Shown here piece by piece: positions 29,699 to 51,858 of a DNA stretch of 64,000 nucleotides. Every line of letters starts with the position of its first letter. The stretch's first letter is position 1. A program made the position numbers and the translations under genes. The stretch is from Paracoccus sp. (in: a-proteobacteria) (GTDB lineage: Bacteria; Pseudomonadota; Alphaproteobacteria; Rhodobacterales; Rhodobacteraceae): NCBI GenBank assembly GCA_030538425.1, contig JAUNTZ010000008.1:2969-66968 (forward strand), given 5' to 3'. The notes under the pieces are model-generated. The model had not been told where the DNA came from. It did no database searches and was given only the letters and a program-made list of their open reading frames with translations.

Positions 29699-29975
29699 CT
29701 CAGGGTGAGGCAGGCGCGTCGGTGTCCTGCATGCGCCTCACTCACCGCGACCTCTGCGTCGTCCGAACCCCGAACCTGCGCGGCCCGTTGCTCGTCCGCA
29801 GCGCAATTCCACGACAGCGCGATGCAGTCCCACAGTATCAGGGTGCGGCAGGCGCGTTGGTGTCCTGCGTGCGCATCTCTCACCGCGACCTCTGCGTCGT
29901 CCGACGCCCGAACCTGCGCGGCACGTTGCTCGTCGGCAGCGCGGTTTCACGACAGCGCGATGCAGGCCCGCAGGA
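29699..29975 (-). repeat. Two diverged 138-bp copies of the SPOR gene tail
   Basis: Two units at about 29699-29837 and 29838-29975 repeat the last part of the neighbouring leftward gene. Landmarks CAGGCGCGT-like at 29711, 29849 and 29987 are exactly 138 bases apart, and the TGA stop recurs at 29699-29701, 29838-29840 and 29976-29978. Shared segments include ACCGCGACCTCTGCGTCGTC and AACCTGCGCGGC. The rest of the 800-base gap (29182-29698) holds no convincing gene apart from the dispersed motif; open frames through it are shadows of the repeat. Confidence 0.8.
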
Positions 29976-31427
29976 TCAGGGCGCGGCGGGCGTGTCGGTA
30001 TCGGCCTGTGCCTCATTCACCGCACCTTCTTCGGCATCCGGCTGATCCTGCGCGGCACGTTCCGCTTCCGCAGCGCGGTCAGCCTCAGCCGCCGCATCCA
30101 GTTCCGCCCGCGTCGGCGCGTGGCGGCTGAACGAATCGCGGATCTCACCCGCCAACCGCTCGGCGTTGAGCGCGTCGCTGGCGGGCCAGATCAGCACCCA
30201 GCCCTCGACCAGATCGCCCTCGACCCGCGCCTCGGCATGGCCGCTATGCGCATCATCGGCGCCCGCCAGAGTGACCCGCCCGCGCGAGACGCGCCGTTCG
30301 GGCTGTGGCACCCAGCCAAGCGCGGTCACCAGCCCGGCCATGTCCAGCATCTCTTGCTGGCCGCCTGGCTGCGCGAACAGGATCAGCGCCGCGCCCGAGC
30401 CGTCGCGCGGGCCGTAAATCGACATGCCGCGCTCGGTGCGGTCATGCTCCAGCCGCTCCATCGGGGCGGTCAGCGACAGGCCGGTATGCGCATCCTCGAG
30501 CGTCTCAAGCCCCATATCGGAACGCCACGCGATGCGGCGTTCGGCCAGATCGGCAAGGGCCGTGCCGGGATCGGTCGAGGCGCGATAGGTCGAGATCATC
30601 CGGGCGATGGCGGCGCGGGTCTGGGGGCCGTCCTGACCGTCGATCTCACCCTCATAGAACCCCTCCCAGGCGAGCGCCTCTTGCGCCTCATCCAAGGGCG
30701 GCATGGCGGCGGGCTCAGTCGGGGGCGCGGGCAGATCTGGGGCTGAGCCCGGCTCGATGGCGCGGCCAAGGGTGGCGGCCTCGACCGTTTCGGTGTCGTC
30801 GGGCAAGGCCTCGCCGTTGGCAAGCGCGTCGCGCCAGGCGCGCGCGCTGGCCTCGGGCAGGGGGCCGAGGGCTATGGCATAGCCCGCCTCGGATTGCCAC
30901 AAACCGGTCTCGGGGAAGGTCTCACGCAGGCGGGTCAGCTCGGCGCGGGCCTCGGCCTCATCCTCGATGGGGGCGAGGCGGAGATAATAGTCGGGCGGGG
31001 GAGGCGGCGCCTCGGGTTCGGCTGGGGGCGCGGCATCCGTCGCGGTGGCCTCATCGGCGGCACCACCCGACGCCACCTCAATCGGCGCGCCGCCGCCTGC
31101 CGGGGTGGCGCTGATGCCCTCGGCGGGGGTCAGGAAGGCGTCCTGCGGCACCTGCCGCGCGGCCTTCATTGCATCAAGCCGCGCCTGCGCCTCATCCCGG
31201 GGCAGGGGGCCGACCGCAATCGCGTGCCATGTGCCGCCGGGCAGAGCGTAACTCACCACATTGTCGAATTGCGCGGCAAGCGCCTGCGCCCCTTCGGCTG
31301 CATCGGCGGCACCGCGCCGCGCCTCGATGCGGATGAACACCTCTTCTGCGGCGGCAACCGATGGCAGCACCATCCCCGCCACGCCAAGCATCAGCCCTGC
31401 AATCCGACCCATTGAGTTTCTGCGCAT
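29976..31427 (-). CDS. Exported SPOR and peptidoglycan-binding domain protein
   Basis: A 483-residue protein with an N-terminal signal (MRRNSMGRIAGLMLGVAGMV, cleavage after AAA). Two SPOR-like segments, each with an IA(V/L)GPLP motif, lie near residues 30-85 and 165-210. They are separated by an Ala/Pro-rich linker. A peptidoglycan-binding-1-like segment LAWEGFYEGEIDGQDGPQTR lies near 255-285, and a beta-rich domain of unknown type spans about 300-440. The C-terminus is a low-complexity Ala/Glu/Asp tail. ATG at 31427 follows a GGGGACGG ribosome site; the very long frame reaching to 32639 runs antisense through glyQ and is rejected. It is divergent from glyQ. It probably acts at the cell envelope, binding glycan strands. 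The last 35 codons belong to the 138-bp repeat. Confidence 0.78.
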   Translation of the reverse strand: MRRNSMGRIAGLMLGVAGMVLPSVAAAEEVFIRIEARRGAADAAEGAQALAAQFDNVVSYALPGGTWHAIAVGPLPRDEAQARLDAMKAARQVPQDAFLTPAEGISATPAGGGAPIEVASGGAADEATATDAAPPAEPEAPPPPPDYYLRLAPIEDEAEARAELTRLRETFPETGLWQSEAGYAIALGPLPEASARAWRDALANGEALPDDTETVEAATLGRAIEPGSAPDLPAPPTEPAAMPPLDEAQEALAWEGFYEGEIDGQDGPQTRAAIARMISTYRASTDPGTALADLAERRIAWRSDMGLETLEDAHTGLSLTAPMERLEHDRTERGMSIYGPRDGSGAALILFAQPGGQQEMLDMAGLVTALGWVPQPERRVSRGRVTLAGADDAHSGHAEARVEGDLVEGWVLIWPASDALNAERLAGEIRDSFSRHAPTRAELDAAAEADRAAEAERAAQDQPDAEEGAVNEAQADTDTPAAP

Positions 31428-31511
31428 ACCGTCCCCGTGATTGACCATGACCCGCGCCGGTCCTAGAAGGCGCAGGCATATTCGTGCAGACATACGAAAA
31501 AGGATGCCCCC

Positions 31512-32438
31512 ATGACCAGCCCTAACGGCGCAGCAAAGCCGCGCAGTTTTCAAGAAGTGATCTTGCGGCTGCAAAATTACTGGGCCGGGACGGGCTGTGC
31601 GATCCTTCAGCCCTATGATATGGAGGTCGGCGCAGGCACCTTTCACCCCGCGACCACGCTGCGCAGCCTTGGTTCGCGCGCGTGGGCTGCGGCTTATGTC
31701 CAGCCCTCGCGCCGCCCGACCGATGGGCGCTATGGCGAGAACCCGAACCGTTTGCAGCATTATTATCAATATCAGGTGATCATCAAACCCAGCCCGCCCG
31801 ATCTGCAGGATCTGTATCTGGGCAGCCTGTGGGCCATCGGGCTGGACCCGATGGTCCATGATGTCCGCTTTGTCGAGGATGACTGGGAAAGCCCGACCCT
31901 TGGCGCATGGGGTCTTGGCTGGGAAGTCTGGTGTGACGGGATGGAGGTCAGCCAGTTCACCTATTTCCAGCAGGTCGCGGGCTATGACTGCGCGCCGGTC
32001 TCGGGTGAGCTGACCTACGGGCTCGAGCGGCTGGCCATGTATGTTCTGGGCGTTGAGCATGTGATGGACATGCCCTTCAACGACCCGGACAGCCCGATCC
32101 CGCTGAGCTATGGCGATATCTTCCGCCAGACCGAGCAGGAATATTCCCGCTGGAACTTCGATCAGGCCGATACCGACATGCTGTTCCAGCATTTCCGCGA
32201 TGCCGAGGCCGAATGCGCCCGCATCATCGCCGCCGCCGAGAGTGACGCGGCGGGGCGGCGCATCCCCATGGCGCATCCGGCCTATGATCAGGCGATCAAG
32301 GCCAGCCATCTGTTCAACCTGCTGGACGCGCGCGGCGTGATTTCCGTGACCGAGCGGCAGGCCTATATCGGGCGCGTGCGGGCGCTGACCAAGGCCTGCG
32401 CCGATCTGTTCGTCACCACAGAGGCGGGCGCGGCATGA
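31512..32438 (+). CDS. glyQ: Glycyl-tRNA synthetase alpha subunit
   Basis: The catalytic subunit of the bacterial alpha2-beta2 GlyRS. The N-terminus [20 protein letters not shown] and [15 protein letters not shown] match the family, followed by [19 protein letters not shown] (class II motif 2), [15 protein letters not shown] and [15 protein letters not shown] (motif 3). The 308-residue length is normal. ATG at 31512 is preceded by AAAAGGATG. It is the first gene of a three-gene run glyQ, a small membrane-anchored protein and glyS, each overlapping the next by 1 to 4 bases. Confidence 0.97.
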
Positions 32439-32911
32439 ACTGGGGCAAGATTGCGATTGTGATGCTGCTTGGCACGGCGGCGCTTGCCGGTGTGTCGATG
32501 TATTACCTTCAGGTCTACGGCTATTATGATGAGATTGATGAGATCTCGGGCGCGCAATCGCTTGTCCTGACCGCCCCGGACGGCCAGCAGATCCCACTTG
32601 AGGCGCGCGATTTTCGCGGTATTGACAAGACCAGCTCACCTCTTGGCTGGCGGGCCTGCTTTACGGTCGATCAGCCACCCGAGGCGCAGATTTATGAGAA
32701 CCCGACCCCGCTTGTCGGGCCGAACTGGTTTCGTTGTTACTCGGCGCGGGGGATTGCGGGCGACCTGGACAGCGGCGCGGTCCAAGCGGTGCTGTCGCAG
32801 CGCAATATCCGCACGGGCGTTGACCGCGTGATCGCGATTTACCCTGACGGGCGGGCATTTGGCTGGCATCAGCTGAACGACGAAGCCGAAGAAACAAGGA
32901 CCATCGAATAA
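32435..32911 (+). CDS. Membrane-anchored protein between glyQ and glyS (DUF6446-like)
   Basis: A 158-residue protein with one N-terminal hydrophobic segment (about residues 7-27) and a mostly soluble remainder. GWRACFTV and [10 protein letters not shown] give two cysteines that could form a periplasmic disulfide, and the C-terminus ([17 protein letters not shown]) is well formed. Proteins of this kind between glyQ and glyS occur across Rhodobacteraceae, and I believe they correspond to DUF6446; the function is unknown. Both ends overlap the neighbours (ATGA with glyQ, 1 base with glyS), so it must be co-translated with the synthetase. Confidence 0.85.
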
Positions 32912-35373
32912 TGCCGGACCTGCTGATCGAGCTGTTTTCCGAAGAAATTCCCGCCCGGATGCAGGCCCGCGCGCGCGAGGATCTGCGGCGTCTTGTGACC
33001 GACGCTCTGGTGGGGGCCGGTCTGACCTATCGCAGCGCGGGCGCATTTTCGACGCCGCGCCGTCTGGTTCTGTCCATCGAGGGGCTGGACGCGGCGTCAA
33101 AACCCGTGCGTGAGGAACGCAAGGGTCCGCGCGTGGATGCGCCTGAGCAGGCGCTTGAGGGGTTTTTGCGCTCGACCGGGCTGACCCGTGATCAGCTTGA
33201 GGCCCGCGACGACAAAAAGGGTCAGGTCTGGTTCGCGGTGATCGAACAGCCGGGGCGCGAGGCTGAGGCCATCGTGGCCGAGGTTCTGGACGCCACCATC
33301 CGCAATTTCCCATGGCCCAAGTCGATGCGTTGGGGCGCGGGGCGGCTGCGTTGGGTGCGCCCGCTGCACTCGATCATCGCGTTGCTGAGCGATGAGGCGG
33401 GCGCGCGGGTCGTGCCGTTTGAGATCGAGGGGATCACCGCAGGCGACAGCACGCGCGGGCATCGCTTCATGGCGCCCGATGCGTTCAGCGTCACGGGTTT
33501 TGACGATTACGCCGCCAAACTGCGCCGCGCCCGCGTGATGCTGGATCAGGCCGAACGCGAATCTGCCATCGCGCAAGAGGCCGCGAACCTTGCCTTTGCG
33601 CGCGGCTTTGAGGTGGTCGAGGATCAGGGCCTGCTGACGGAAATTGCCGGTCTGGTCGAATGGCCGGTGCCGCTGATGGGCGTGATCGAGGACCGTTTCC
33701 TGTCGCTGCCGCCCGAGGTGCTGCAAACCTCGATGAAGGAACACCAGAAGTTCTTCTCCGCCCGCAACCCGAAAACCGGGCGGATCGAGGGCTTTGTCAC
33801 CGTCGCCAATATCGAGACGCCCGATGATGGCGCGACGATCCTGGCCGGGAATCAACGCGTTCTGGCCGCGCGCCTGTCGGATGCGGCGTTTTTCTGGGAG
33901 AACGATCTGCGCGTGGCCAAGGCGGGGATGGCGGACTGGGCCAAGGGTCTGGAAGCCGTGACCTTCCACAACAAGCTCGGCTCACAGGCCGACCGCGTGG
34001 CCCGCATCGCCGCCCTTGCGCGCGAGATCGCCCCGGCGGTCGGCGCCGACCCCGATCAGGCCGAGCGCGCCGCGCGTCTGGCCAAGCTGGACCTGCGTTC
34101 CGCGATGGTGGGCGAGTTCCCCGAATTGCAAGGCGTGATGGGCCGCTATTACGCGCTCGCGGCGGGCGAGGATCAAGCCGTTGCCGACGCCGCCCGCGAC
34201 CATTACTCGCCGCTTGGCCCGTCCGACGCGGTGCCGTCCGCGCCTGTCTCGGTCGCGGTGGCTCTGGCGGATAAGATCGACACGCTGACCGGGTTCTGGG
34301 CGATTGATGAGAAGCCGACGGGGTCGAAAGATCCCTTCGCGCTGCGAAGGGCGGCGCTTGGGGTTATTCGGTTGGTGTTGGGGAATGGGGTGCGGTTGGG
34401 GTTGCGCGCGCCTCTCTCAGTTAGTTCGCTTCTACTCCAGCTCGCTCAACTTGAAATGCTAGAACATCCCGCGGTTCTTAAAGGTAATTTCGATCCCACC
34501 GAGGCGGAGTCATGGGACCATCTCATCTGGCAACGCCAGCCCTACAAACGAATGCTTAATTGGGACGAATTCTGCGATACACGCTCACAAGAATTAACCG
34601 TAGCGTTATCCGGTTATTTCGAACTCGATCCCGAGCACGATGAACAGGATCGCAAAAAGTGTGAGGCAGCGAGTGTCGCGTACACTGAGTTCAGTCGCCG
34701 CGTTGATGACCTTTCCGGTTTGGTAGACGTAGCTGATTTCTTCAAGGCCGATATTATCGAAGGGGCCGTGGGTTCTAGCTGGCCTCAGAGGATATTAAAC
34801 CACGATCGTTGGGGCGAGGTTTGGCGCCGACCCCATGAGTCACTGGTGACCGACCTCCTCGCCTTCCTCCACGACCGCCTCAAGGTCCACCTGCGCGACC
34901 AAGGCATCCGCCATGACATCATCGACTCGGTCCTGGCGATGGACGGCTCGGATGATCTCGTGCTTCTGGTCAAGCGGGCCGAGGCTCTGGCGGGCTATCT
35001 CGCGACCGAGGATGGGGCCAACCTGTTGCAGGGCCTCAAACGGGCCAGCAACATTCTGGCGCAGGCCGAGGCTAAGGACGGCGTGGAATATTCCTTCGGC
35101 GCCGACCCGAAATTCGCGGAAACCGACGCGGAACGCGCCTTGTTTGCCGCTTTGGACAGCGCCGAGCCCGCCATGCGCGAGGCCGTCCGCGCTGAGGATT
35201 TCTCCGCCGCCATGGGTGCCATGGCCGGGCTGCGCGCGCCGATTGACGCGTTTTTCGAGGCGGTGCAGATCAACACCGACAACCAGATCATCCGCCGCAA
35301 CCGGCTGAATCTGCTCTCGCGCATCCGCGCTGCGGGCGCGCTGATTGCCGATTTCAGCAAGATCGAGGGCTGA
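32911..35373 (+). CDS. glyS: Glycyl-tRNA synthetase beta subunit with a large in-frame insert
   Basis: The tRNA-binding and editing-like subunit of GlyRS. The start [49 protein letters not shown]-like ALADKIDTLTGFW and GSKDPFALRRAALGVIRL are canonical. The usual length is about 690-700 residues, but this one has 820. The excess lies between about residues 497 and 647 (34400-34850), before DLLAFLHDRLKVHLRDQG, where the family normally has a short linker. The insert has A/T-rich codons (TTA, AAT, CGA, GTA); I counted 27-28 G+C in two of its 60-base lines against 38 of 60 shortly after it. The frame remains open, so the protein may still work. It is the last cistron of the glyQ operon. Confidence 0.95.
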   Translation: MPDLLIELFSEEIPARMQARAREDLRRLVTDALVGAGLTYRSAGAFSTPRRLVLSIEGLDAASKPVREERKGPRVDAPEQALEGFLRSTGLTRDQLEARDDKKGQVWFAVIEQPGREAEAIVAEVLDATIRNFPWPKSMRWGAGRLRWVRPLHSIIALLSDEAGARVVPFEIEGITAGDSTRGHRFMAPDAFSVTGFDDYAAKLRRARVMLDQAERESAIAQEAANLAFARGFEVVEDQGLLTEIAGLVEWPVPLMGVIEDRFLSLPPEVLQTSMKEHQKFFSARNPKTGRIEGFVTVANIETPDDGATILAGNQRVLAARLSDAAFFWENDLRVAKAGMADWAKGLEAVTFHNKLGSQADRVARIAALAREIAPAVGADPDQAERAARLAKLDLRSAMVGEFPELQGVMGRYYALAAGEDQAVADAARDHYSPLGPSDAVPSAPVSVAVALADKIDTLTGFWAIDEKPTGSKDPFALRRAALGVIRLVLGNGVRLGLRAPLSVSSLLLQLAQLEMLEHPAVLKGNFDPTEAESWDHLIWQRQPYKRMLNWDEFCDTRSQELTVALSGYFELDPEHDEQDRKKCEAASVAYTEFSRRVDDLSGLVDVADFFKADIIEGAVGSSWPQRILNHDRWGEVWRRPHESLVTDLLAFLHDRLKVHLRDQGIRHDIIDSVLAMDGSDDLVLLVKRAEALAGYLATEDGANLLQGLKRASNILAQAEAKDGVEYSFGADPKFAETDAERALFAALDSAEPAMREAVRAEDFSAAMGAMAGLRAPIDAFFEAVQINTDNQIIRRNRLNLLSRIRAAGALIADFSKIEG

Positions 35374-35393
35374 GGGGGCGAGACGCGCCCCGC

Positions 35394-36416
35394 TCACTCA
35401 AAGATGATCCCCGAGCCCTCAACCGCGCGCCCGATGATCGCGGCGGCGGGATGGGCCGCGCGGATCTGCGACAGCACGCGCGGGGCCTGATCGGCCTCGA
35501 CCGCGACCAAGAGCCCGCCCGAGGTCTGCGGGTCGCCGACAATCGCATGTTGCCACGGCGCCAGACCGGCGGCGCTGACCAAATCCCCGACCGCGTCCCA
35601 ATTGCGCCCGCTGGCCCCGGTCACATGACCCGCCTGCGCCAACTCGCGCGCCCGGCTCAGCAGGGGCAGCGCGTCCAGATCGACCGATAGCGCAAGCCCC
35701 GAGCCGCGCGCCATCTCCAAACCATGCCCGATCAGCCCGAACCCGGTCACATCGGTGATTGCGTGAACCGACGGATCGGCCCCCAGTTCCGCGCCGATCC
35801 GGTTGAGCGTGGTGCAGGAGGCCACCATCTCGGCCACGCCCGCCGCGTCCAGAACGCCCTTGCGAATCGCGTTGGAATAGATGCCGACGCCAAGCGGCTT
35901 GGTCAGGATCAGCGCATCGCCCGCACGCGCGCCGCCATTTCGGCGCAGCGCCTCGGGCGCGCAAAGCCCGATCACGGCCAGCCCGTAAATCGGCTCGGGC
36001 GCGTCGATGGAATGGCCGCCCGCGACGGGAATGCCTGCCTCGGCGCAGATCTCGGCACCGCCTGCAAGGATCGCGCCGATCACTTCGGGCGCGAGTTTCG
36101 CCACCGGCATGCCCAAAATCGCAAGCGCCATGATTGGCCGCCCGCCCATCGCGTAAATGTCGGAAATCGCGTTGGCGGCGGCGATGCGCCCGAAATCGCG
36201 CGGATCATCGACCATCGGCATGAAGAAATCCGTGGTCGCAATCACGCAGGTCTTGTCGTCGATCTGCCAGACCGCCGCATCATCCGAGGTGGCGTTGCCG
36301 ACCAGAAGCTGCGGAAAAGCCTGCGCGGCTGGCACCTGTTCCAGCAATTCGCGCAGCACGGCAGGCCCGATCTTGCAGCCGCAGCCGCCGCCATGGGCAA
36401 GTTCGGTCAGTCGCAT
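35394..36416 (-). CDS. selD: Selenide, water dikinase (selenophosphate synthase)
   Basis: Makes selenophosphate from selenide and ATP. The N-terminal active-site segment [10 protein letters not shown] contains Cys12 and Lys15, equivalent to E. coli Cys17 and Lys20; the catalytic position is Cys, not selenocysteine. [38 protein letters not shown] and [15 protein letters not shown] are conserved AIRS-domain segments. The 340-residue length is typical. The start ATG at 36416 has GAGGAC upstream. No selA, selB or selenouridine synthase is present in the window, so its downstream use (selenoprotein such as formate dehydrogenase, or tRNA selenouridine) is unresolved. It is convergent with glyS, with a small GC hairpin at 35375-35391 between them. 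Confidence 0.95.
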
Positions 36417-36481
36417 AAGAATTCTGTCCTCACGAAAATGTCATGGTGCCGCTATCTCGCACTTGCAGCATTGTTCAACTC

Positions 36482-39353: not shown

Positions 39354-39824
39354 ATGCAAAAGCTGACCAAAAAACTGGCAACGCTGAGCCTCTGCGCCCT
39401 TATGGCTCTGCCGGTTATCTCTGCGCCGCAGCGCGCCGAAGCCTCGAACGCGCAAGCCTGCCTTGCCGAAGCCCTGTATTTCGAAGCCCGCGGCGAAGGC
39501 GCGCGTGGCCAGCGTGCGGTCGGTGAGGTGATCCTGAACCGCGTTGACAGCCGCCAATTCCCCTCGACCGTGTGCGGGGTTGTCAATCAGCGCGGCCAGT
39601 TCACCTATCGCCGGGGCCGCCCGATGTCGAATGCCGCCGCCCGCGCGCGCTCGCATCAGATCGCGGCTGAGCTGCTGGCCGGTGCGCCGCGCGAACTGAC
39701 CGGCGGGGCGACCTATTTCCACGCCACCAGCGTGCGCCCGTCCTGGTCGCGCCGCTTCGTGCGCACCACCCAGATCGGCGCGCATGTGTTCTACCGGCCC
39801 GGTCAGCGCGTCGCGTCGAACTGA
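39354..39824 (+). CDS. Cell-wall hydrolase, SleB/CwlJ family
   Basis: A 156-residue exported protein with signal peptide MQKLTKKLATLSLCALMALP and cleavage near SAPQRAEA. The Hydrolase_2 domain is complete: CLAEALYFEARGEGARGQRAVGEVILNRV with the conserved Glu residues, FPSTVCGVVNQRGQFTYRR, and ATYFHATSVRPSW near the C-terminus. The family includes spore cortex-lytic lytic transglycosylases; in alphaproteobacteria it acts on septal or general peptidoglycan. The start ATG follows AAGAAGATG-type purine-rich sequence. The last codons (RVASN-stop) are repeated twice more just downstream, and a terminator follows. Confidence 0.92.
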   Translation: MQKLTKKLATLSLCALMALPVISAPQRAEASNAQACLAEALYFEARGEGARGQRAVGEVILNRVDSRQFPSTVCGVVNQRGQFTYRRGRPMSNAAARARSHQIAAELLAGAPRELTGGATYFHATSVRPSWSRRFVRTTQIGAHVFYRPGQRVASN

Positions 39825-39877
39825 TGCGCAGCTAGGGTCGCGTCGAATTGACGCGCCGTGGTGGCGCGTCGAACTGA
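39811..39877 (+). repeat. Three copies of the cell-wall hydrolase 3' end (26-27 bp period)
   Basis: TCGCGTCGAACTGA at 39811-39824 contains the real stop codon. TCGCGTCGAATTGA recurs at 39838-39851 and GCGCGTCGAACTGA at 39864-39877. The spacings are 27 and 26 bases, and each copy retains the TGA. Confidence 0.85.
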
Positions 39878-39912
39878 CCCGGTCTCCTCTCCTTTTCGGT
39901 TGTCTGCCGAAA

Positions 39913-39944
39913 GCCTCCGGCGGGGATATTTGGGGACAAAAGAC
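39913..39944 (+). repeat. Dispersed post-gene motif, copy 2
   Basis: GCCTCCGGCGGGGATATTT followed by GGGGACAAAAGAC lies downstream of the cell-wall hydrolase. A small hairpin TTTCGG...CCGAAA ends immediately upstream (about 39895-39912). It is near-identical to the inverted-orientation copy at 29611-29643. Confidence 0.75.
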
Positions 39945-40026: not shown

Positions 40027-40815
40027 ATGGACCTTCCTGATCGTATCCACCTGCGCGACCATGTGATCGAGGCCGAGATCGGCGCCTTCCAGTCCGAGCG
40101 CGGCCAGACCCAGCGTCTGCGCTTTCACATCACCGTCGATCTGGCCGCGCCGGTGGTCGGGGCGGGCGATGATGTGGATCGCATCCTGTCTTACGACGTG
40201 CTGACCGATGCGATTGCGGCGGGGCTTGCGGATGAGCGGTTCAACCTGCTTGAAACGCTGGCCGAGCGCATCGCGGCTGAGATCCTGACCCATGCCGCCG
40301 CAGGCCGGGTCGAGGTCACCATCGAAAAGCTGGACCGGGTGCCCGGTGCGCTTGGCGTGACCATTTCGCGCAGGCGCGGGCGTGTCCAGACCGGCGCTGA
40401 GGCCGCAGCCCCGGTGGTGCTGTTCTACGCCGCGCCGGTCGCGCTGCCCGGCGGGCCGGTGATCCTTGTCCCGGACGCGCCGGACCTGCCCTTGCCTCAG
40501 GGCGGCGATGCCCGCCGCGTCGCGCTGCTGGCGCTTGATCAGGCGGCCTGGGTGTTGGGTGGCAAATTGGGGCTTGATGTGGTGGACAGCCGGACCGAGC
40601 TGGATTGGGCCGCGAAAGAGGGCCGCGCGGTGGTCTGGGCGCCCGCGCGCATGGCCGGCGACGCCCCCGAGGCCGGCGAGGCGCCCGATGCGCTTGCGCT
40701 CTGGCTTGCCTTGCGGCTTGGCGCGGCGCGGCTGGATCTGGCCTTGCCTGCGGGGCGCGGCATGGCCGAGGGGCTGCGCGGCGCGGGCGTGCCTGTGCGA
40801 CAGGTCGCGCCATGA
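40027..40815 (+). CDS. folB: Dihydroneopterin aldolase FolB with a C-terminal extension
   Basis: Residues 1-120 form the dihydroneopterin aldolase of folate synthesis: HVIEAEIGAFQSERGQTQRL carries the substrate Glu, NLLETLAERIAAEIL is the second conserved helix and IEKLDRVPGALGVTI provides the catalytic Lys. The remaining 140 residues form an Ala/Leu-rich extension unrelated to the classical 120-residue FolB; longer FolB proteins of this sort occur in Rhodobacteraceae and the extension has no known function. The last 40 codons (from ALALW to VRQVAP) are repeated twice in the downstream tandem copies. The stop overlaps the first chimeric frame by an ATGA. Confidence 0.9.
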   Translation: MDLPDRIHLRDHVIEAEIGAFQSERGQTQRLRFHITVDLAAPVVGAGDDVDRILSYDVLTDAIAAGLADERFNLLETLAERIAAEILTHAAAGRVEVTIEKLDRVPGALGVTISRRRGRVQTGAEAAAPVVLFYAAPVALPGGPVILVPDAPDLPLPQGGDARRVALLALDQAAWVLGGKLGLDVVDSRTELDWAAKEGRAVVWAPARMAGDAPEAGEAPDALALWLALRLGAARLDLALPAGRGMAEGLRGAGVPVRQVAP

Positions 40816-40973
40816 GCCGCGACTATTTGCAGAAGGGCGGGGCGATGCCCATTGCGCGCAGGGCGCTTGCGCTGTGGCGGGTGGCACGGCTTGATCTGAC
40901 CTTCTCCGCCGGGCGCGGCATGGCCGAGGGGCTGCGCGGCGCGGGCGTGCCTGTGCGGCAGGTTGCGCCATGA
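40812..40973 (+). CDS. Chimeric junction ORF 1 (folP start fused to folB end), 53 codons
   Basis: A short frame created by tandem duplication. Its first 15 residues, MSRDYLQKGGAMPIA, resemble the FolP N-terminus ([19 protein letters not shown]), and the rest, from ALALWRVARLDL to VRQVAP, copies the FolB C-terminus. It starts in an ATGA overlap with the folB stop and ends in an ATGA overlap with the second chimeric frame, so the operon remains translationally coupled. Whether the peptide is stable or useful is unknown. Confidence 0.55.
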   Translation: MSRDYLQKGGAMPIARRALALWRVARLDLTFSAGRGMAEGLRGAGVPVRQVAP

Positions 40974-41131
40974 GCCGAAACTATCTGCAAAAAGGCGGAA
41001 CGGTTCCCATCGCGGGCGAGGCGCTTGCGCTGTGGCGGGTGGCGCGGCCTGATCTGGCTTTGCCTTCGGGGCGCGGCATGGCCGAGGGGCTGCGCGGCGC
41101 GGGCGTGGCTGTGCGGCAGGTTGCGCCATGA
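40970..41131 (+). CDS. Chimeric junction ORF 2 (folP start fused to folB end), 53 codons
   Basis: The second tandem unit, exactly 158 bases after the first. It begins MSRNYLQKGGTVPIAGEA and ends with the FolB-like [20 protein letters not shown]. The final ATGA overlaps the true folP start at 41128. Its preserved frame, length and overlaps are notable for a duplicated fragment, but no function is implied. Confidence 0.55.
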   Translation: MSRNYLQKGGTVPIAGEALALWRVARPDLALPSGRGMAEGLRGAGVAVRQVAP

Positions 41132-42126
41132 GTCGCGACTATTTTCGCCCGATCCCGCAAGAGGGCGGCGCGCTGCCGATTGCGGGCGGATGGGTGCGGT
41201 TTTCGAGCGTCGAGGTTCTGGCGCGCGGGGCTGCGCCGCGTGTGATTGATGCCGCCGATGCGCCGCGCGAATGGCGCGACCGGGTCTGCGCGCGGCGTGC
41301 CGATCTGGCCGGGCTGGCGATGGATCGGGCGCAGATCATGGGCATCGTCAATGCCACGCCCGACAGCTTTTCGGATGGCGGGCGATGGGGCGATGGGGCG
41401 GCGCATGGGCGCGCGCTGTTTGCGCAAGGCGCTGCGATCGTTGATGTGGGTGGCGAATCGACGCGGCCCGGCGCGGCTGAGGTTCCCATCAGTGATGAAA
41501 TTGAGCGCGTCCTGCCTGCGGTGCGGGCGCTGTCGGCGCTTGGGCCGGTCTCAATCGATACGCGCAAGGCGGGCGTGGCGCGGGCCGCCTTGGAGGCCGG
41601 GGCGGGGTTGGTGAATGATGTCTCGGGGCTGGATTTCGACGCCGATATGGCGGGCGTGGTGGCCCGCTCCGGCGCGGCCTTGTGCCTGATGCATGCGCAG
41701 GGCCTGCCCGCCGATATGCAGGACGACCCGCAATATGGTGACGTGCTGCTGGACGTTTATGACGCGCTTGAGGCGCGTATCGCGCGCGCCTGCGCCGCCG
41801 GTATATCGCGCGACCGCATTGCGATTGACCCCGGCATCGGCTTTGGCAAGACGCTGGCGCATAATCTGGCGATCCTGCGGCGGATCTCGCTCTTTCACGG
41901 GCTGGGTTGCCCGATCCTGCTGGGCGTCTCGCGCAAGCGGTTTATCGGGGCGATCTCGGGCGCGGAGCAGGCGGATGCGCGCGATCCGGGCAGTTTGGCC
42001 GTGACCCTGGCGGCGGTGGCCCAGGGCGTGCAGATCCACCGCGTCCATGAGGTCGCGGGCGCGGCGCAGGGACTCGCGCTATGGCATGCGGTGAGAGACG
42101 GAATTAACCAAGAGGCAAGAACATGA
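41128..42126 (+). CDS. folP: Dihydropteroate synthase
   Basis: Condenses 6-hydroxymethyl-dihydropterin pyrophosphate with p-aminobenzoate. The DHPS signatures [17 protein letters not shown] near residue 72 and [11 protein letters not shown] near 108 are intact, as are [20 protein letters not shown] and GVSRKRFIG. The protein has 332 residues, about 60 longer than the E. coli enzyme owing to an N-terminal extension before the first strand, which other Rhodobacteraceae also have. It is coupled upstream to the chimeric frame (ATGA) and downstream to glmM (ATGA at 42123). Confidence 0.96.
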
Positions 42127-43469: not shown

Positions 43470-43484
43470 GCGCGGCGGGCAAAG

Positions 43485-43526: not shown

Positions 43527-43529
43527 AGA

Positions 43530-45211: not shown

Positions 45212-45379
45212 GTATCCTCCGGCCGGCCGGGCGCCTGTTCCCATGCCTTCGGCGTCCCCTTAAAGTATGGGGAAACCCTTGTCACTAGGCCAATCGCCTT
45301 GATCTTGCCGCATCGCGGCGCTTTGGCTAGGGTCACGGCGGCGATGGACGCCGCACAACCGCACGCAGAAAGGCCGCGC

Positions 45380-46219
45380 ATGCAATTCACCTCGACCGAC
45401 AGCTATATCGCGCCGCCCGATCTCTCGGTCGCGGTGAACGCGGCGGTGACGCTGGAGCGCCCGCTTCTGGTCAAGGGTGAGCCGGGGACCGGCAAGACCG
45501 AACTGGCCCGGCAGGTCGCCGCCAGCCTTGGTCTGTCGATGGTCGAATGGCACATCAAATCAACGACCAAGGCGCAACAGGGCCTGTATGAATACGATGC
45601 CGTCAGCCGGTTGCGCGACAGCCAGCTGGGCGATGCGCGGGTGCATGACGTGGCGAACTATATCCGGCGGGGCAAGCTGTGGCAGGCTTTTGCCGCGCCG
45701 CAAAAGGTCGTGCTGCTGATTGATGAGATCGACAAGGCCGATATCGAGTTCCCGAATGATCTGTTGCAGGAGCTCGACCGGATGGAGTTTCACGTTTATG
45801 AGACCGGCGAGACGGTCCGCGCCATCCATCGCCCGGTGGTCATCATCACCTCGAATAATGAAAAGGAACTGCCGGATGCGTTTTTGCGGCGCTGTTTCTT
45901 TCACTATATCCGCTTTCCCGATGCTGAGACGCTGCGCCGGATCGTGGCGGTGCATTACCCCGATCTGAAACCGCGCCTTCTGGATGAGGCGCTGAGCCAG
46001 TTTCTGGAACTGCGTGAGACGCCCGCGCTGAAGAAAAAGCCCTCGACCAGTGAGCTGCTCGACTGGATCAAGCTGCTTCTGGCTGAGGATCTGGCGCCCG
46101 AAGACCTCAAGCGCCCGGCGGGTGAGGTTCTGCCTCGGCTGCATGGCGCGCTGATCAAGAATGAACAGGATGTCGCCCTGTTCGAGCGGCTGGCCTTTAT
46201 GTCGCGCAGACAGCGGTAA
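45380..46219 (+). CDS. MoxR-family AAA+ ATPase
   Basis: A 279-residue ATPase of the MoxR/CoxD type. Walker A GEPGTGKTE is near residue 33, Walker B VLLIDEIDKAD near 112, sensor 1 ITSNNEKELPDAFLRRC near 158, and a C-terminal helical lid carries the second sensor region. These proteins usually act with a von Willebrand factor A (CoxE-like) partner to insert metals or remodel complexes. No such partner follows here; the next gene is a small protein on the other strand. ATG at 45380 is used because the domain starts at once (MQFTSTDSYIAPPDLS); the longer frame would run antisense through dksA. Confidence 0.9.
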   Translation: MQFTSTDSYIAPPDLSVAVNAAVTLERPLLVKGEPGTGKTELARQVAASLGLSMVEWHIKSTTKAQQGLYEYDAVSRLRDSQLGDARVHDVANYIRRGKLWQAFAAPQKVVLLIDEIDKADIEFPNDLLQELDRMEFHVYETGETVRAIHRPVVIITSNNEKELPDAFLRRCFFHYIRFPDAETLRRIVAVHYPDLKPRLLDEALSQFLELRETPALKKKPSTSELLDWIKLLLAEDLAPEDLKRPAGEVLPRLHGALIKNEQDVALFERLAFMSRRQR

Positions 46220-46222
46220 TTT

Positions 46223-46414
46223 TTAACGTGGCAGCGGGCCGCGATAGCCGCGCCCATGTTCCATCTGCATCCAGTCCGGCACCAGATCGAAATATTCAAG
46301 CGTCCCAAGGATCACGGCAATCGCGATGATCGAGGCGACCAGAATCACCATGCGCATCGAGGGCGGGTTGCGCACCCAACGCGAAGCACGAATAAGCCAG
46401 ATCCAGTTGTTCAT
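46223..46414 (-). CDS. Small single-span membrane protein, 63 residues
   Basis: MNNWIWLIRASRWVRNPPSM is followed by a hydrophobic helix (about residues 22-42, MVILVASIIAIAVILG) and a polar tail ending GYRGPLPR. The Trp/Arg-rich start and the acidic-aromatic segment after the helix look designed rather than random, and short proteins of this pattern occur in relatives. It is convergent with the MoxR gene, with 3 bases between stops. Function unknown. Confidence 0.65.
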   Translation of the reverse strand: MNNWIWLIRASRWVRNPPSMRMVILVASIIAIAVILGTLEYFDLVPDWMQMEHGRGYRGPLPR

Positions 46415-46461
46415 TCCTCGCCCCTGCGTTAAGCGCGCGTGACAGAATTGATGAGCCTATC

Positions 46462-46911
46462 TTGCCCCACCGTTCCGAGACCCGCAAACTGCCTTATTCC
46501 GCGCGCCAGATGTATGATCTGGTCGCCGATGTCGAGAGCTATCCGCAATTCCTGCCATGGAACTCGGCCGCGCGCATCCGCTCACGCGAGGCGGGTGAGG
46601 CGGGCTCCGAGGTCATCAAGGCCGATCTGGTCATCTCGTTCAAGGTGTTTCGCGAACGCTTTGGCAGCCGCGTGGTGCTGTGGCCCGATGATCTGAAGAT
46701 CGACACCGAATATCTGGACGGGCCATTTCGCTATCTGCGCTCGGGCTGGGCGTTTCGAGACCTGCCCGAAGGCGGCTCTGAGGTCGATTTCTTCGTCGAT
46801 TTTGAGTTTCGCAACGCATTGCTGGCCCGGCTGATCGGGGTGGTCTTCGATGAGGCCATGGCCCGCATCGTCCGCGCCTTTGAGGATCGCGCCCGCGCGC
46901 TTTACGGCTAG
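46462..46911 (+). CDS. COQ10/RatA-like START-domain protein
   Basis: A 149-residue SRPBCC-fold protein of the ubiquinone-binding COQ10 group, often labelled RatA toxin. The pattern SETRKLPYSARQMYDLVADV is followed by ESYPQFLPWNSAARI near residue 27, LDGPFRYLRSGWAF near 90 and VDFFVDFEFRNALLARLIG near 111. It probably chaperones coenzyme Q to respiratory complexes. The start is TTG at 46462, which gives the canonical N-terminus; there is no suitable ATG. The stop overlaps the end of the convergent DAO-family oxidase gene by 4 bases. Confidence 0.87.
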   Translation: MPHRSETRKLPYSARQMYDLVADVESYPQFLPWNSAARIRSREAGEAGSEVIKADLVISFKVFRERFGSRVVLWPDDLKIDTEYLDGPFRYLRSGWAFRDLPEGGSEVDFFVDFEFRNALLARLIGVVFDEAMARIVRAFEDRARALYG

Positions 46912-48014
46912 GAAAACCGCGCCGGATCAAGCGCCGCGACCGCCTGCGCCGAAAGCGCCGGTGCGCGGCCCGCAATCAGGTCGGCGGCCAGCTGCGCCAT
47001 GGCGGGCGCGGTCTGGATGCCGTAACCGCCCTGACCGGCCAGCCACAAAAACCCCTTCGCGCCGGGCGCAAAGCCCGCCACTGGCGTGCGGTCGGGCGCA
47101 AAGCTGCGCAGCCCCGCCCATGAATGCTCCAGCCGCGTGACCTCATAGCCGGTATCCTGCGAAAACCGGTCCAACCCCTCGGCCAGAACCATATCATCGG
47201 GCCATGCGTCATGCGCATCGGCGGGGTCTTCGTCGCAGGGGCTGACCATCAGCTTGCCCGACATGGGCTTCATATACCAACGATCCGCGGCGGAGGCGAC
47301 CATCGGCCAGCTGTCCATGTCATGGCCTTCGGGCTCAGGCAGAATCGCGGCACTTCGCCGCATCGGGATCAGGCCAACGGGCGCGATGCCCGCCAGCCGC
47401 GCGACCTGATCGGCCCAGGCCCCCGCCGCATTAACCAGAACCGGGGCCGTGAAAACACCCTGCGGCGTGGTCACATGCCAGCCCTCATCACGCCATTCAA
47501 TCGCAGTGGCGGGCGCGCCGGTCACGATCTGCCCGCCAAGCGATTTCAGCAGCCGCGCAAAGCCCTGCAACATGAGGTCCACGTCGATCTCCTGCGCATT
47601 GCGCTCAATCGCGGCGCCGCCCGCCACCGCCTCAGGCCGCAGCATCGGGCAAAGCGCAAGGGCCTGATCGGGGGTCAGCCGCTCCATATCGTCGGATGCG
47701 GCAAGGTAGTCCTCCAACGCCTGCTCCTCGCCCGCCCGCGCGATCACCATCTCACCGCGCGGCGCCAGCAGCGGCAGGTCCGAGACGCCCTGCGGGTCCG
47801 CGAAAAACGGCGCCGAGGCCGCGTTGAGCGCGCGCAGCGCCCGCCCGCCATAATTCAGGATGAACATCGCCGCCGAGCGGCCCGTGGCGTGATGGCCGAT
47901 CTGGCTTTCGGCCTCCAGCACGATCACCTTGCGGTCGGCGGCGATCCGCGCCGCCGCAGAGATCCCCGCCATGCCGCCACCGATCACGATCACATCTGTT
48001 GCCGTCTCGTCCAT
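46908..48014 (-). CDS. DAO-family FAD-dependent oxidoreductase (glycine/D-amino acid oxidase-like)
   Basis: A 368-residue flavoprotein. The Rossmann motif VIVIGGGMAGISAAARIA is at about residues 8-25, GHHATGRSAAMFILNYGG near 42 binds the FAD ring region, VLVNAAGAWADQVARLAGI lies near 207, and the C-terminal FLWLAGQGGYGIQTAPAMA near 325 completes the FAD site. The substrate is probably an amino acid or amine, but it could also be a dehydrogenase using another acceptor. ATG at 48014 is preferred over 48062 because the FAD motif then sits at the usual distance. It is convergent with the COQ10-like gene. Confidence 0.88.
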   Translation of the reverse strand: MDETATDVIVIGGGMAGISAAARIAADRKVIVLEAESQIGHHATGRSAAMFILNYGGRALRALNAASAPFFADPQGVSDLPLLAPRGEMVIARAGEEQALEDYLAASDDMERLTPDQALALCPMLRPEAVAGGAAIERNAQEIDVDLMLQGFARLLKSLGGQIVTGAPATAIEWRDEGWHVTTPQGVFTAPVLVNAAGAWADQVARLAGIAPVGLIPMRRSAAILPEPEGHDMDSWPMVASAADRWYMKPMSGKLMVSPCDEDPADAHDAWPDDMVLAEGLDRFSQDTGYEVTRLEHSWAGLRSFAPDRTPVAGFAPGAKGFLWLAGQGGYGIQTAPAMAQLAADLIAGRAPALSAQAVAALDPARFS

Positions 48015-48074
48015 GGTGCCGCCTTTCGCGCCTGTCATCCGGATTTGAGCGCAGCCTAGCACGGCTTTCAGGAC

Positions 48075-48518
48075 TTACAAATCGGTCGTTTCGCCGGGGC
48101 TCTCGGTCGCAGGCGCGCGGCGCGGAAAGCCGAACAGAAAGCCGCCGGACCGGTCGCGATCCGGCAGCGCATCCAAAGCGGGCGGCGGCGGCGCGTCGGG
48201 ATTGCGGCGGATGATGATATCGCCATTGGGCAGGCGCTCGGGCATCGCATAATTCCCGATATCGTCCATCAGCGCCGAGAGATTCTCAAGCGCGGGCGCA
48301 TAATCGTTGAAGCTGCGCTGTGCCTCTTCGGCCATGCCGCGCATATAGGGCTCAAACCGGCCAAAAAGATCGAGCGCAAAGGATTCAAGCGCCTGTTCCA
48401 TCGCCGAGGGCGGCTCACTGGCGTCACGCTCGGGCGTCTGGACTTGCGAGATGGCAGGCGCCGCCCCAAGCAGCAAAGCCAAAGCCGAGGCGGTCAGGAT
48501 GCGGGGATTGGGTGTCAT
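48075..48518 (-). CDS. Exported hypothetical protein, 147 residues
   Basis: A signal peptide covers residues 1-24 (MTPNPRILTASALALLLGAA, cleavage after AIS). The mature part is acidic and Pro-rich, with a helical stretch MEQALESFALDLFGRFEPYM and a region ERLPNGDIIIRRNPDAPPPP. Small secreted proteins with this layout recur in Rhodobacteraceae, but no function is known. The start region (CATGCGCTATCC on the plus strand) is also part of the upstream tandem repeat. It lies about 60 bases downstream of nothing but repeat copies, and 60 bases upstream of the oxidase gene in the same direction. Confidence 0.7.
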   Translation of the reverse strand: MTPNPRILTASALALLLGAAPAISQVQTPERDASEPPSAMEQALESFALDLFGRFEPYMRGMAEEAQRSFNDYAPALENLSALMDDIGNYAMPERLPNGDIIIRRNPDAPPPPALDALPDRDRSGGFLFGFPRRAPATESPGETTDL

Positions 48519-49565
48519 GCGCTATCCTTCTTTGAGGGGTTTTTACCCGGGCTCATGGCCGAAGGCCCGGCGGTTACCGGCACAACCCTAGGCAGCCGCC
48601 CAAGGTTCCGCCCCTCACGCAAGGGTGACCCTCACGCGCCGCGAAGCAGATGGCTGCGTCGGTTGATATCGCAGGCGTCGTTGATAGCGCGGGTGCGGGC
48701 CGTGCCGAGCAGCACCGCAAATATAACTGTGGTAGCGACGCCGGGATCAGGTGCAACGCGCTACCCTTTGTCGAGGGATTTCTCGGACGGGCATGGCTGG
48801 GGCCCGGCAATTGCCGCGTCAAACCCTCGTGCTCCCAAGGTTCTGCCTGTCACGTAAGGGTGAGGCTCAGGCGCCGCGCGGCAAGCGGCTTCGCCGGTGG
48901 ATATCGCAAGCGTCGTCGACGCCACGTCTGCGGGCCGGGACAAGCATCACCGCACATATCGCTGCGGTTACGCCGCCGGAATTGGGTGCAATGCGCTATC
49001 CTTTATCGAGCGATTTTTCGGCCGGCGCATTGCCAAAGGCCCGGCGATCACAGCATCAACCCTGCGCAGGGGGCAACGCTCCCCATCTCACGCAAGGGCG
49101 AGTTTCAGGCGCAGCGCGGCAAGTGGCTGCGCCGATAGATATCCCATGCACCGTTGATGGCACGGATGCGCGCCGGGCGGCGCCGCAAATATCGCGGCGA
49201 TAGCCGCGCCCGGATCGGGCATCATGCACTACCCTTTATTCAAGGATTTTTCAGCCGGGGCATGGTCGAGGCCCGGCAGGCAAAGCATCAACCCCCGCAT
49301 ACCCAAGGCTCCACCCCTCACGCAAGGGTGAGCCTCACGCGCCGCGCGGTAGATGGCTGCGCGGGTCGATATCGCCGACGTCGTTGATGGCGCGGGTGCG
49401 GACCGGGCCAAGCCGCGCCCCACATATCGCGGCGGTAACAATGCCGGGACCAGGTGCAATGCGCCATCATTGGGCGCTTTACAGCCGGTGCATGGCCAAC
49501 ACCCCGCAACCACCGCATCGGCCCCGCGTGCACCCAACGTTCCGCCCCTCACGCAAGGGTGACTC
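48519..49565 (-). repeat. Four diverged tandem copies (230-238 bp) of the DjlA-gene 3' end and spacer
   Basis: The 1-kb gap between the DjlA-like gene and the exported-protein gene is made of head-to-tail units. The landmark CTCACGCAAGGGTGA recurs with its T at 48615, 48850, 49088, 49318 and 49549, giving periods of 235, 238, 230 and 231. Each unit repeats the last 28 or so codons of the DjlA-like gene (AGATGGCTGCG, GATATC, GTCGTTGATGGCGCGGGTGCG), the stop region and a spacer ending in an ATGCGCTATCC-like sequence that resembles the start of the next gene. Divergence between copies is high and no shared reading frame survives. Confidence 0.85.
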
Positions 49566-50303
49566 TCACGCCCCACGTGGCAGATGGCTGCGCCGGTAGA
49601 TATCCCATGCGTCGTTGATGGCGCGAGTGCGGGCCTCGGCCAGCCGGATCGCCTCGCGGGGCAGACCCGCCGCGATGGCGCGGTCGGGGTGGTTCTCGCG
49701 GATCAGCTCGCGCCAGCGAAGCCGCGCCTCATCGACCGGGGTGCCGGGCGAGATGCCCAGAACCTCGCAGGGGATGCATTCTGCCGAGGGGTCGTGGCGG
49801 GCGAGGATGGTTGCGATTCGACCCTCAGGGATGGCGAAGATCCGCGCGACCTCGCGGATCACATAGATCTCGGCCTCATGCAGCACCGCGTCGGCACTGG
49901 CGATCATCACCAGCCCCTCGACCACGTTCTCCAGAACCGGATCGGCGGGCGGAAACATCCGCGCGATGCGCTGCGCCCACAGATCGAACCCGGCCACATC
50001 CTGCCGCGCCAGATCAAAAACGCGGGCGGCGTTACGCTCCTCGGCGCGGGGGATCTTGAAGATCCGCCGAAAGGCCGCGACCTCGGATCGGTCCACCCGC
50101 CCATCCGCCTTGGCGACCTTGGCCCCAAGCGCGATGATGGCAATCGTGAAGGCCACCGATTTCTCAGCCGGATCAACGGGTTTCGCCGCGCCGATAAAGG
50201 CCGCCAGCCGATCCGCGATTCGCTGCCAGAAACTGCGCGGCGGCGGCAGTTCCGGAGTGGCCTGGGCGCTGATCGTCCGGTCAGGGGGCGGCATCTGGTT
50301 CAT
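49566..50303 (-). CDS. DjlA-like protein: TerB-like domain plus C-terminal J domain
   Basis: A 245-residue protein. A helical TerB/tellurite-resistance-like domain spans about residues 50-160 (VAKADGRVDRSEVAAFRRIF and SADAVLHEAEIYVIREVARI, with the Asp/Glu metal-type residues). A J domain follows (about 180-245), with RWRELIRENHPDRAIA containing the HPD that stimulates DnaK. Unlike E. coli DjlA there is no N-terminal membrane anchor. ATG at 50303 is chosen; longer frames run into the upstream repeat. The last 28 codons are the source, or one end, of the downstream 230-238 bp repeats. Confidence 0.85.
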   Translation of the reverse strand: MNQMPPPDRTISAQATPELPPPRSFWQRIADRLAAFIGAAKPVDPAEKSVAFTIAIIALGAKVAKADGRVDRSEVAAFRRIFKIPRAEERNAARVFDLARQDVAGFDLWAQRIARMFPPADPVLENVVEGLVMIASADAVLHEAEIYVIREVARIFAIPEGRIATILARHDPSAECIPCEVLGISPGTPVDEARLRWRELIRENHPDRAIAAGLPREAIRLAEARTRAINDAWDIYRRSHLPRGA

Positions 50304-50354
50304 GCCCCGGAGTGTAGCGCAATGCGCACCCCGCCGCCATGCGTGATCTGGCGG

Positions 50355-51060
50355 GTGGCGGTTTGTTGGGCAGATTTGTCCGCCTAGGGGCCCTCGGCCC
50401 GCGCAGCGCCGTGCAGTCTGGGCTGAGGGCCAGCTGCGCCTCTGGCGCCCTGCGTGGTTTGCTAGTCGCCTTCTGTCGGTCAAAGATTTCGGCGAGCGGC
50501 ACCCTGCGCAGGCCGCCCATTAGCCCAATGCGCACCCTTTGCGGTGCTTGATGTCGACGGTCGTTTTTCTGTCTCTCAAATAGCGCCGTCAGACGTCACC
50601 ACCGCGCGCCCCGTCCTTGCGCAGACCGGGCTTCAGCGCCTAGGCGCCCTGCCGCCATGCGCGATTTTCTGTTCGTCTTCTGGCCGTCAAGTATCCCCGC
50701 CGGAGGCATCCAAAGCCTGAGCCGCCCCGTGCAGACAGGGTATCAGTCCCGATGCGCACCCGCTGCGCTGCGTGATTTCAACGGTCGTCTTCCGTCGGTC
50801 AAATAGGCTCGTCAGAGGCCACCGCAGCCCGGCCTCTCTTCGACGCCGGGGCGTCACCCCCGATATGCGTCCCTGTGCGACGCGTGATCTGGCGGGTCGT
50901 GTTTTGTCGGTCAACTATGCCCACCAGAGGCGCCCACAGCCCGCGCGACCCTGCGCAGACAGGATATAAGTCCCGATGCGCATCCGCTGCACGCGTAATC
51001 TTGACGGTCGCCGTGGGTCCGTCAAACACCCGGCACTCGCCACCCCCCGTCGACCGCGTA
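50355..51060 (-). repeat. About seven diverged tandem units (near 111 bp) between the DjlA-like gene and trpA
   Basis: The 757-base gap has no gene. The landmark TCAAA in GTCGGTCAAATA-like sequence falls at 50480, 50576, 50687, 50799, 50911 and 51022 (spacings 96, 111, 112, 112, 111), with a weaker member near 50368. Between landmarks GATGCGCACCCGCTGCG and TGCGTGAT recur. The same GATGCGC block is the plus-strand image of the last codons and stop of trpA (51061-51075), so the units extend the trpA tail. Confidence 0.8.
50674..50707 (-). repeat. Dispersed post-gene motif, copy 3 (diverged)
   Basis: On the minus strand this reads GCCTCCGGCGGGGATACTTG followed by ACGGCCAGAAGACGAAC. The first 20 bases nearly match the copies at 29.6 and 39.9 kb. 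It lies within the 111-bp repeat array downstream of trpA and follows the direction of trpA transcription. Confidence 0.6.
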
Positions 51061-51858
51061 TCACCCCCGATGCGCGCCCGCAGCGAGTTCGCTGACAAAG
51101 CGCAGCACCTCGTCCACGCTGTCGCCCGCGCCGATGCGCTTTACGATGGCTGAGCCCACCACGCAGCCATCGGCGACTTGCGCCACCGCCTCCGCCGCCT
51201 CAGGCGTAGAGATGCCAAAGCCCACCACGACCGGCAGGCCCGCCGCGCTTCTGATGCGGGCGACCTCGGGGGCCACCTCGGCCGCATCGGCGGCGGCCCC
51301 GCCGGTGATCCCGGTGACTGAGACATAATAGACAAACCCCGAGGTATTCTTCACCACCGCAGGCAAGCGCCGGTCATCGGTGGTCGGCGTCGCGAGCCGG
51401 ATAAAATCCAGCCCCGCCGCCTGAGCGGGCAGGCACAGCTCAGCATCTTCCTCGGGTGGAAGGTCGACGATGATCAGCCCGTCGATCCCCGCCGCCACCG
51501 CGTCTTGCAGGAACTGCTCGACCCCGCCCTTGCGGGCATAGATCGGGTTATAATAGCCCATCAGCACGATCGGGGTGCGGTTGTCGGATTTGCGGAACTC
51601 GGCGGCGAGCCCGAGCGTCTGGGTCAGGCTGCCCCCGGCGGCAAGCGAGCGCTGACCCGCGGCCTGAATGACCGCGCCATCGGCCATCGGATCGGTGAAG
51701 GGCATGCCGAGCTCGATGATATCGACGCCCGCCTCGGGCAGGCCGCGCATGATCGCAAGTGAGGTGTCGCGGTCGGGGTCCGAGGCCATGATATAGGACA
51801 CGAACGCCTTGCGGCCCTCGGCCTTCAGCCTTGCGAAACACTCGTCGATTCTGCTCAT
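51061..51858 (-). CDS. trpA: Tryptophan synthase alpha subunit
   Basis: Splits indole-3-glycerol phosphate to indole and glyceraldehyde 3-phosphate. The catalytic residues are exactly at the expected numbers: Glu49 in IIELGMPF and Asp60 in [54 protein letters not shown] and the phosphate-binding [11 protein letters not shown] are all present. The 265-residue length is normal. It is not next to trpB in this window; upstream there is only non-coding sequence and IS debris. The 3' end is involved in the 111-bp tandem array. Confidence 0.97.

Follow-up and report, generated by a model that had tools for sequence, protein, structure and literature searches.

Tandem repeat arrays in the window

We analyzed the tandem repeat arrays in a 64,000-nucleotide stretch of a Paracoccus sp. 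genome (assembly GCA_030538425.1, contig JAUNTZ010000008.1; hereafter the window, with positions counted from its first base). The original prediction, made from this sequence, held that at five loci the gap downstream of a gene consists of head-to-tail copies of that gene's last codons and stop codon. By using Tandem Repeats Finder and self-BLAST, with bounds tightened by the stricter detector described below, we clearly recover four of the five named arrays (SPOR, cell-wall hydrolase, folB, and djlA). Pfam matches in the genes concerned are SPOR with PG_binding_1, Hydrolase_2 (cell wall hydrolase), FolB, FolP, and TrpA; the product of the gene described as DjlA-like is a TerB-domain protein, with no J-domain among its matches at E 0.001. 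For FolP, the nearest named matches among the best 80 of 585 are from Sinirhodobacter and Paracoccus (60%-65%). No match to a known structured RNA family (Rfam) in the window reaches the gathering score, and there is no tRNA in the window.

The array at the SPOR/PG-binding gene (29673..30079, minus strand) comprises ∼3 copies of ∼137 bp in a convergent gap of 794 bp and contains the final 104 bp of the gene with its stop (at 29976, minus strand). At the cell-wall hydrolase gene (39354-39824), 2.6 copies of a 27-bp unit (39810..39878, plus strand) cover the stop. The folB array (40686..41142, plus strand; ∼3 copies of 157/158 bp) covers the end of folB (130 bp) together with the start of folP (15 bp), and the unit of the djlA array (48490..49646, minus strand; five copies of ∼235 bp) joins the end of the djlA-like gene (81 bp) to the first 29 bp of the neighboring gene, 48075-48518. 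Stops do lie inside the repeated units, as predicted, but the folB and djlA units also hold the start of the next gene and are thus gene junctions.

The trpA array (50397..51085, minus strand) was found by self-BLAST only. The predicted period of ∼111 bp is present as a sub-period (E = 1e-17), but the strongest offset is 216 bp (E = 3e-41). Both alignments end at 51025-51026, 35 bp before the trpA stop (51061), which is covered solely by a weaker alignment at an offset of 318 bp that extends to 51085 (E = 9e-7); a stop codon within the array is therefore clear at four loci and weak at trpA. A sixth, intergenic array, absent from the original prediction, lies at 52535..52977 (strand unassigned), with an offset of 258-264 bp and copies 69% alike.

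Arrays across the genome and in related genomes

The genome containing the window (92 contigs totaling 2.69 Mb; completeness 86.6%) was sampled over 968 kb, 36% of its length: 660 kb that include the window, and a 308-kb hold-out chosen after the hypothesis. In the first of these samples, 12.5 kb is N. Arrays were detected by self-search in 20-kb pieces (E ≤ 1e-6, offset 30-700 bp, alignment spanning 0.6 of the offset or more), and genes were called with a purpose-made codon model that places starts approximately but stops exactly within each called frame. Since the window was chosen for its repeats, we also give counts without it.

The first set yields 35 arrays, 31 of them at junctions or in intergenic sequence, and the hold-out nine, eight of them so placed. 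One of these, L119:14847-15575, is a tandem paralogous gene pair and was left out before arrays were classified, leaving 38 junction or intergenic arrays in 968 kb (33 in the 904 kb outside the window). As had been predicted, few repeats lie inside genes (five of 44 arrays). One gene-internal array, L116:15618-17601, lies in a gene of 3.6 kb; its offsets are for the most part multiples of 54 bp, and it resembles a protein repeat domain. Units are ∼70-280 bp long and copies 66%-96% alike; one array has ∼8.5 copies (L183), and 15% of the noncoding bases of the first set belong to arrays. No array was detected in 1.94 Mb of locally shuffled sequence, obtained by shuffling the own-genome sample twice. 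The repeat observation is thus real and genome-wide.

Same-genus genomes, sampled in part, hold four arrays in a total of 838 kb: one in 154 kb of G122, two in 106 kb of G121, one in 200 kb of G013, and none in 179 kb of G125 or 200 kb of G011. The difference between 38 and four arrays is approximately eightfold (P = 4e-7, Fisher's exact test). A further 138 loci (747 kb), a partial control in that they surround two conserved genes and share some relatives with the main comparison, contain a single array, in G121.

The loci are essentially unrelated in sequence, as the original prediction had stated: among 29 arrays compared there are four cross-matches, all short (best E = 2e-4), and a search of the genome with the djlA array returns one match, itself. 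This does not fit a mobile repeat family. An artifact of assembly in this metagenome-assembled genome is scarcely credible as an explanation. The number of contigs, the incomplete recovery, and the N content given above would all fit one, and in G122 a perfect 55-bp repeat (L133:694-903) adjoins a run of N, apparently through scaffolding; but the copies studied here have diverged to 66%-96% identity, and the window arrays lie inside the contig with gene order conserved on both sides.

History of the arrays

For eight of the 34 arrays with usable flanks, the same junction is present in an available relative locus, and at six of these (folB/folP, djlA, 52535, L131, L196, and L255) the relative gap is clearly shorter. 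From the called genes, the djlA-like gene is 1047 bp from the next gene here, compared with 46-223 bp in 29 relative loci, 27 of which have the same next gene. The folB-folP spacing is 312 bp, against a 4-bp overlap in 11 of 21 relative loci and called gaps of -1 to 203 bp in the remainder, all counted from gene coordinates. The genes flanking the array at 52535 are 1800 bp apart here and 83 bp apart in L217 of G122, the only relative locus recovered. Of the other two junctions, L251 rests on weak matches, and the trpA-djlA gap is not shorter in relatives.

This last gap (50304-51060 in the window), compared at L133, L134, L135, L139, L146, and L160, is a site of turnover. Five of the six relative loci have a small gene in between, GNAT-like or another of ∼195 amino acids (assigned by eye); the window has the array in this place, and in G122 there is a long gap without a gene, which has its own weak 208-bp repeat.

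Copies within each locus keep a constant head-to-tail register, as expected of tandem duplication. The five djlA copies are 69%-74% alike in every pairwise comparison, a star-like pattern with insertions and deletions, and such near-equality is expected if the copies arose close together in time and then decayed apart. The range of copy identity over all arrays fits ongoing birth and decay. The original view of duplication recurring locally, with subsequent decay of the copies, is supported.

Stop codons, start codons, and a proposed selective filter

Among the 38 arrays, 17 contain a stop without a start, eight contain both, 13 neither, and none a start without a stop; here the trpA array is counted as stop-bearing on its weak alignment, and the start in L182:520-880, classed among the eight, depends on a doubtful 61-codon open reading frame (ORF). 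Without the five window arrays the corresponding counts are 15, 6, 12, and 0. In the hold-out alone, six arrays contain a stop and three a start, and those three also contain a stop. When units of the same lengths are placed at random and rejected only if they fall entirely within a gene, the expected counts are 8.6 stop only, 9.9 both, 8.7 neither, and 10.8 start only, and the observed excess of stops over starts is reached in none of 300 runs. The enrichment at 3′ ends over starts and gene interiors, which the original prediction had proposed as its test, is therefore present.

We consider it probable that the arrays reflect tandem duplication, brief amplification, and decay in this lineage, with copies retained only where they are harmless. 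Stretches of ∼70-280 bp with varying end points would be duplicated in tandem through replication slippage or illegitimate recombination that involves hardly any homology, or none, and some arrays would be amplified to three to eight copies. Retention would require that both neighboring genes keep an intact copy and that the sequence ahead of a gene start remains unchanged; the sites retained would then lie downstream of stops, in convergent gaps, and at operon junctions, and most copies would subsequently decay. The reasoning is that a tandem duplication spares a gene unless the unit lies wholly inside it, so no harm follows when the unit covers a stop or an entire operon junction, whereas a unit over a start disturbs the upstream region of that gene and is filtered in the model. 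Arrays would look like gene-end repeats because copies persist mainly at sites that tolerate an additional one.

In our model of this filter, the zone ahead of a start was protected if the gap there measured 40 bp or more; units covering overlapping starts were accepted one time in three, for reading frame. With this frame rule and a 40-bp zone, the expected counts are 14.5 stop only, 8.8 both, 14.0 neither, and 0.8 start only (χ2 = 1.4, three degrees of freedom), and 60 of 300 runs attain the observed excess; with an 80-bp zone they are 13.2, 9.3, 14.7, and 0.8, and 30 of 300 runs do so. The model also bears on gap types, which could be assigned except for four arrays located at the edges of stretches. 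Divergent gaps contain two arrays, against an expectation of 7.5 if no filter acts and 2.0-2.5 if it does, and convergent gaps contain 10 of the 38 (4.9 expected without the filter, 8-10 with it). Counts for zero gaps (three observed, 10-12 expected) are not fairly comparable, because the array itself opens the gap. An earlier variant of the filter (14.7 stop only; 73 of 300 runs) gave overlapping starts a free upstream gap, hence its good fit, and was replaced. We conclude that the harmlessness filter accounts for most of the stop bias, perhaps for all of it, and that the pattern probably does not require a dedicated process at gene ends.

Several results weigh against this interpretation. 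The frame rule is post hoc, introduced once the ORFs described below had been seen, and without it the filter fits less well (χ2 = 5.9; eight of 300 runs attain the bias). Ten model settings were tried, one of them without protection, and five protected settings that lack the frame rule give χ2 values of 4.3-7.1, with 12, 8, 0, 5, and 5 of 200 runs attaining the bias; in these, stop-only arrays fall short (11-12 expected, 17 observed) and double-ended ones are in excess (13-14 expected, eight observed). The model has free choices in the length of the zone, the minimum gap, and the frame rule. Among nine young two-copy arrays, the ends of the copies overlap by 13 bp (L255), 11 bp (L114), 8 bp (L183), 3 bp (L197), and 1 bp (L195), which is in its favor, but overlap is absent in L182, L188:18506, L243, and L251 and inexact in others, and these figures come without a chance-level comparison. 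Finally, the interpretation does not account for the raised rate of arrays in this lineage, for which a weaker purging of slightly harmful DNA is as possible a cause as a higher rate of duplication.

A dispersed motif bears on the question of gene ends. The window has three occurrences of the 14-bp motif TCCCCGCCGGAGGC, against 0.39 expected, at 29630-29643, 39913-39926, and 50694-50707, which are, respectively, 30 bp from the SPOR array, 35 bp from the hydrolase array, and within the trpA array. Allowing up to one mismatch, there are 16 sites in the 968 kb (∼6 expected by scaling), 14 of them intergenic and 13 nearest a stop, and three matches in 838 kb of the relatives. It looks like a dispersed 3′-end element. 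We rejected it as the cause of the arrays: Four of the 16 sites have one of the 38 arrays within 100 bp, and the same holds for 16% of intergenic bases.

The original prediction had named a local process acting at gene ends as the driver. A mutational process of this kind, by which 3′ ends are duplicated, could be replication-transcription conflict, repair linked to termination, or slippage at terminator hairpins. The 17 stop-only arrays set against no start-only array, the excess of convergent arrays over the unfiltered expectation, and the shortfall of stop-only arrays under a filter that lacks the frame rule would all follow from such a process. We nevertheless regard it as unlikely. Three arrays lie at overlapping junctions inside operons, where a terminator would hardly fit, and 13 of the 38 contain no gene end at all; the filter predicts the convergent arrays without it, and the dispersed 3′-end motif is not clearly linked to arrays. 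Random duplication passed through the filter comes near to the observed distribution, although only eight of 300 runs attain the bias if the frame rule is omitted, and the claim of a gene-end driver (e.g., transcription termination) is not supported.

Chimeric mini-ORFs at overlapping junctions

The three arrays at overlapping junctions are those of folB/folP, of an nqrA/nqrB-like pair (L250:4669-5125), and of a pair that ends in an ATP-dependent DNA ligase (L255:12416-12693), whose first gene is weakly beta-lactamase-fold-like, under the cut-off. At all three, the inner copies (five in total) are open ORFs that run from the start of the downstream gene to the stop of the upstream gene, and at the junctions inspected, which are the overlapping ones, these mini-ORFs are chained by the same overlap as the gene pair itself. 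In the folB array, mini-ORF 1 (40812..40973, plus strand; 53 amino acids) fuses the folP start to the folB tail and shares an ATGA overlap with the folB stop, and mini-ORF 2 (40970..41131, plus strand; 53 amino acids) has ATGA overlaps with mini-ORF 1 and with folP. Four mini-ORFs were scanned against Pfam, with no family found. Translational coupling is reported for overlaps of this type, ATGA and TGATG among them (PMC6728339, PMC10666635).

Differences between sister mini-ORFs seldom fall at codon position 2 (two of 41; 2/23 in folB/folP and 0/18 in L250), compared with 33 of 113 among the djlA tail copies (P = 0.0009, Fisher's exact test), although the sister comparison comprises two arrays and the control pairs are not independent. 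When the tails of the mini-ORFs are set against the genuine folB tail, eight of 33 and 10 of 32 differences fall at position 2, which is no depletion. Constraint on the mini-ORFs at this position is, from these sequences, a lead only.

An alternative explanation is that the junction copies are kept because they are functional, by providing a longer spacer, a structure at the mRNA 3′ end, or mini-ORFs that carry ribosomes from the upstream to the downstream gene. The presence of mini-ORFs at every overlapping-junction array, each open to its copied stop, and the avoidance of position 2 between sisters are in keeping with this, but the djlA copies are star-like, contain insertions and deletions, and show no depletion at position 2; the tails compared with folB are likewise undepleted, the sister comparison has the limits given above, and ORFs were sought at overlapping junctions only. 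A functional role for the copies therefore seems to us quite improbable. A broader proposal, in which a heritable, approximately eightfold rise in duplications of 70-300 bp combines with translation and constraint of the overlapping-junction copies as chimeric mini-genes that keep the coupling, is rather doubtful. If it were true, chimeric mini-genes made of the start of one gene and the tail of another would be a route to new small genes.

Comparison with known repeats

Short tandem duplications are generally regarded as frequent but rapidly lost, so that their traces are rarely seen. On the reading that we favor, of duplication filtered by harmlessness, one genome with dozens of duplications of many ages would provide a map of tolerated extra DNA, in which gene interiors and starts are avoided and stops and operon junctions are not. 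The arrays would also show how bacterial gaps may lengthen and how chimeric mini-ORFs may originate. Achaz and Rocha reportedly describe close direct repeats as originating by local tandem duplication and decay. In mitochondrial tandem duplication-random loss, a duplication spanning gene boundaries leaves decaying gene remnants, but whole genes are involved and gene order is altered, unlike the units of 70-280 bp and the unchanged gene order here.

In the open-access literature, searched by titles and the openings of abstracts and with most subscription papers outside the search, we found no description of a stop-biased pattern of junction repeats among the papers listed. Of related systems, Borg tandem repeats and the intergenic repeats of Planctomycetota are the nearest that the search brought up. 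Borg tandem repeats are perfect and A-rich, with units of 18-21 nt in the examples given, and 43%-65% lie in ORFs (PMC9879509). They resemble the present arrays in being of independent origin and genome-specific, and about half are intergenic or have their first unit in or partly within a gene end; the units here are longer (70-280 bp), diverged, and seldom gene-internal. Prokaryotic close direct repeats (PMC4060949) are likewise local, and some kinds are over-represented in intergenic sequence, but the passages concerned deal with 4-10-mers and make no mention of stops, starts, or junction units. In freshwater Planctomycetota, noncoding variants are frequently associated with tandem repeats between genes, with slippage a named cause; these are structural variants within populations, and gene ends go unmentioned in the passage concerned (PMC9426551).

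Candidate genetic causes and other features

A genetic cause of the raised rate, if found, would amount to a natural mutator for duplications of 70-300 bp. Single-strand exonucleases stabilize tandem repeats in Escherichia coli, and xseA has no match in this genome while it is matched in all six relatives searched alongside. We do not take its loss as the cause: The neighbors of xseA in G122 (PurD-like and ParA-like, assigned by eye) are similarly affected in this genome, the PurD-like neighbor being unmatched and the ParA-like one giving weak matches only, in searches of which one had no positive control. Since the neighbors are missing too, the absence of xseA probably reflects a gap in the assembly. 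The xseB gene is present, and the recJ and mutS matches are above their curated cut-offs; the recG match is below its cut-off, as it is in all seven genomes. Ku is absent from this genome and also from G122, G121, G125, and G124, and was rejected as a cause because the sampled genomes among these (G122, G121, and G125) are array-poor without it.

Two minor observations concern other sequences. Under permissive scoring only, a weak intergenic repeat is visible at 7457-7812 of the window, with offsets of 117 and 244 bp and copies 62%-68% alike. In G013, the MutS match falls in two pieces (C1:985493-988101; profile positions 2-270 and 266-838), and mutS may be interrupted in that genome.

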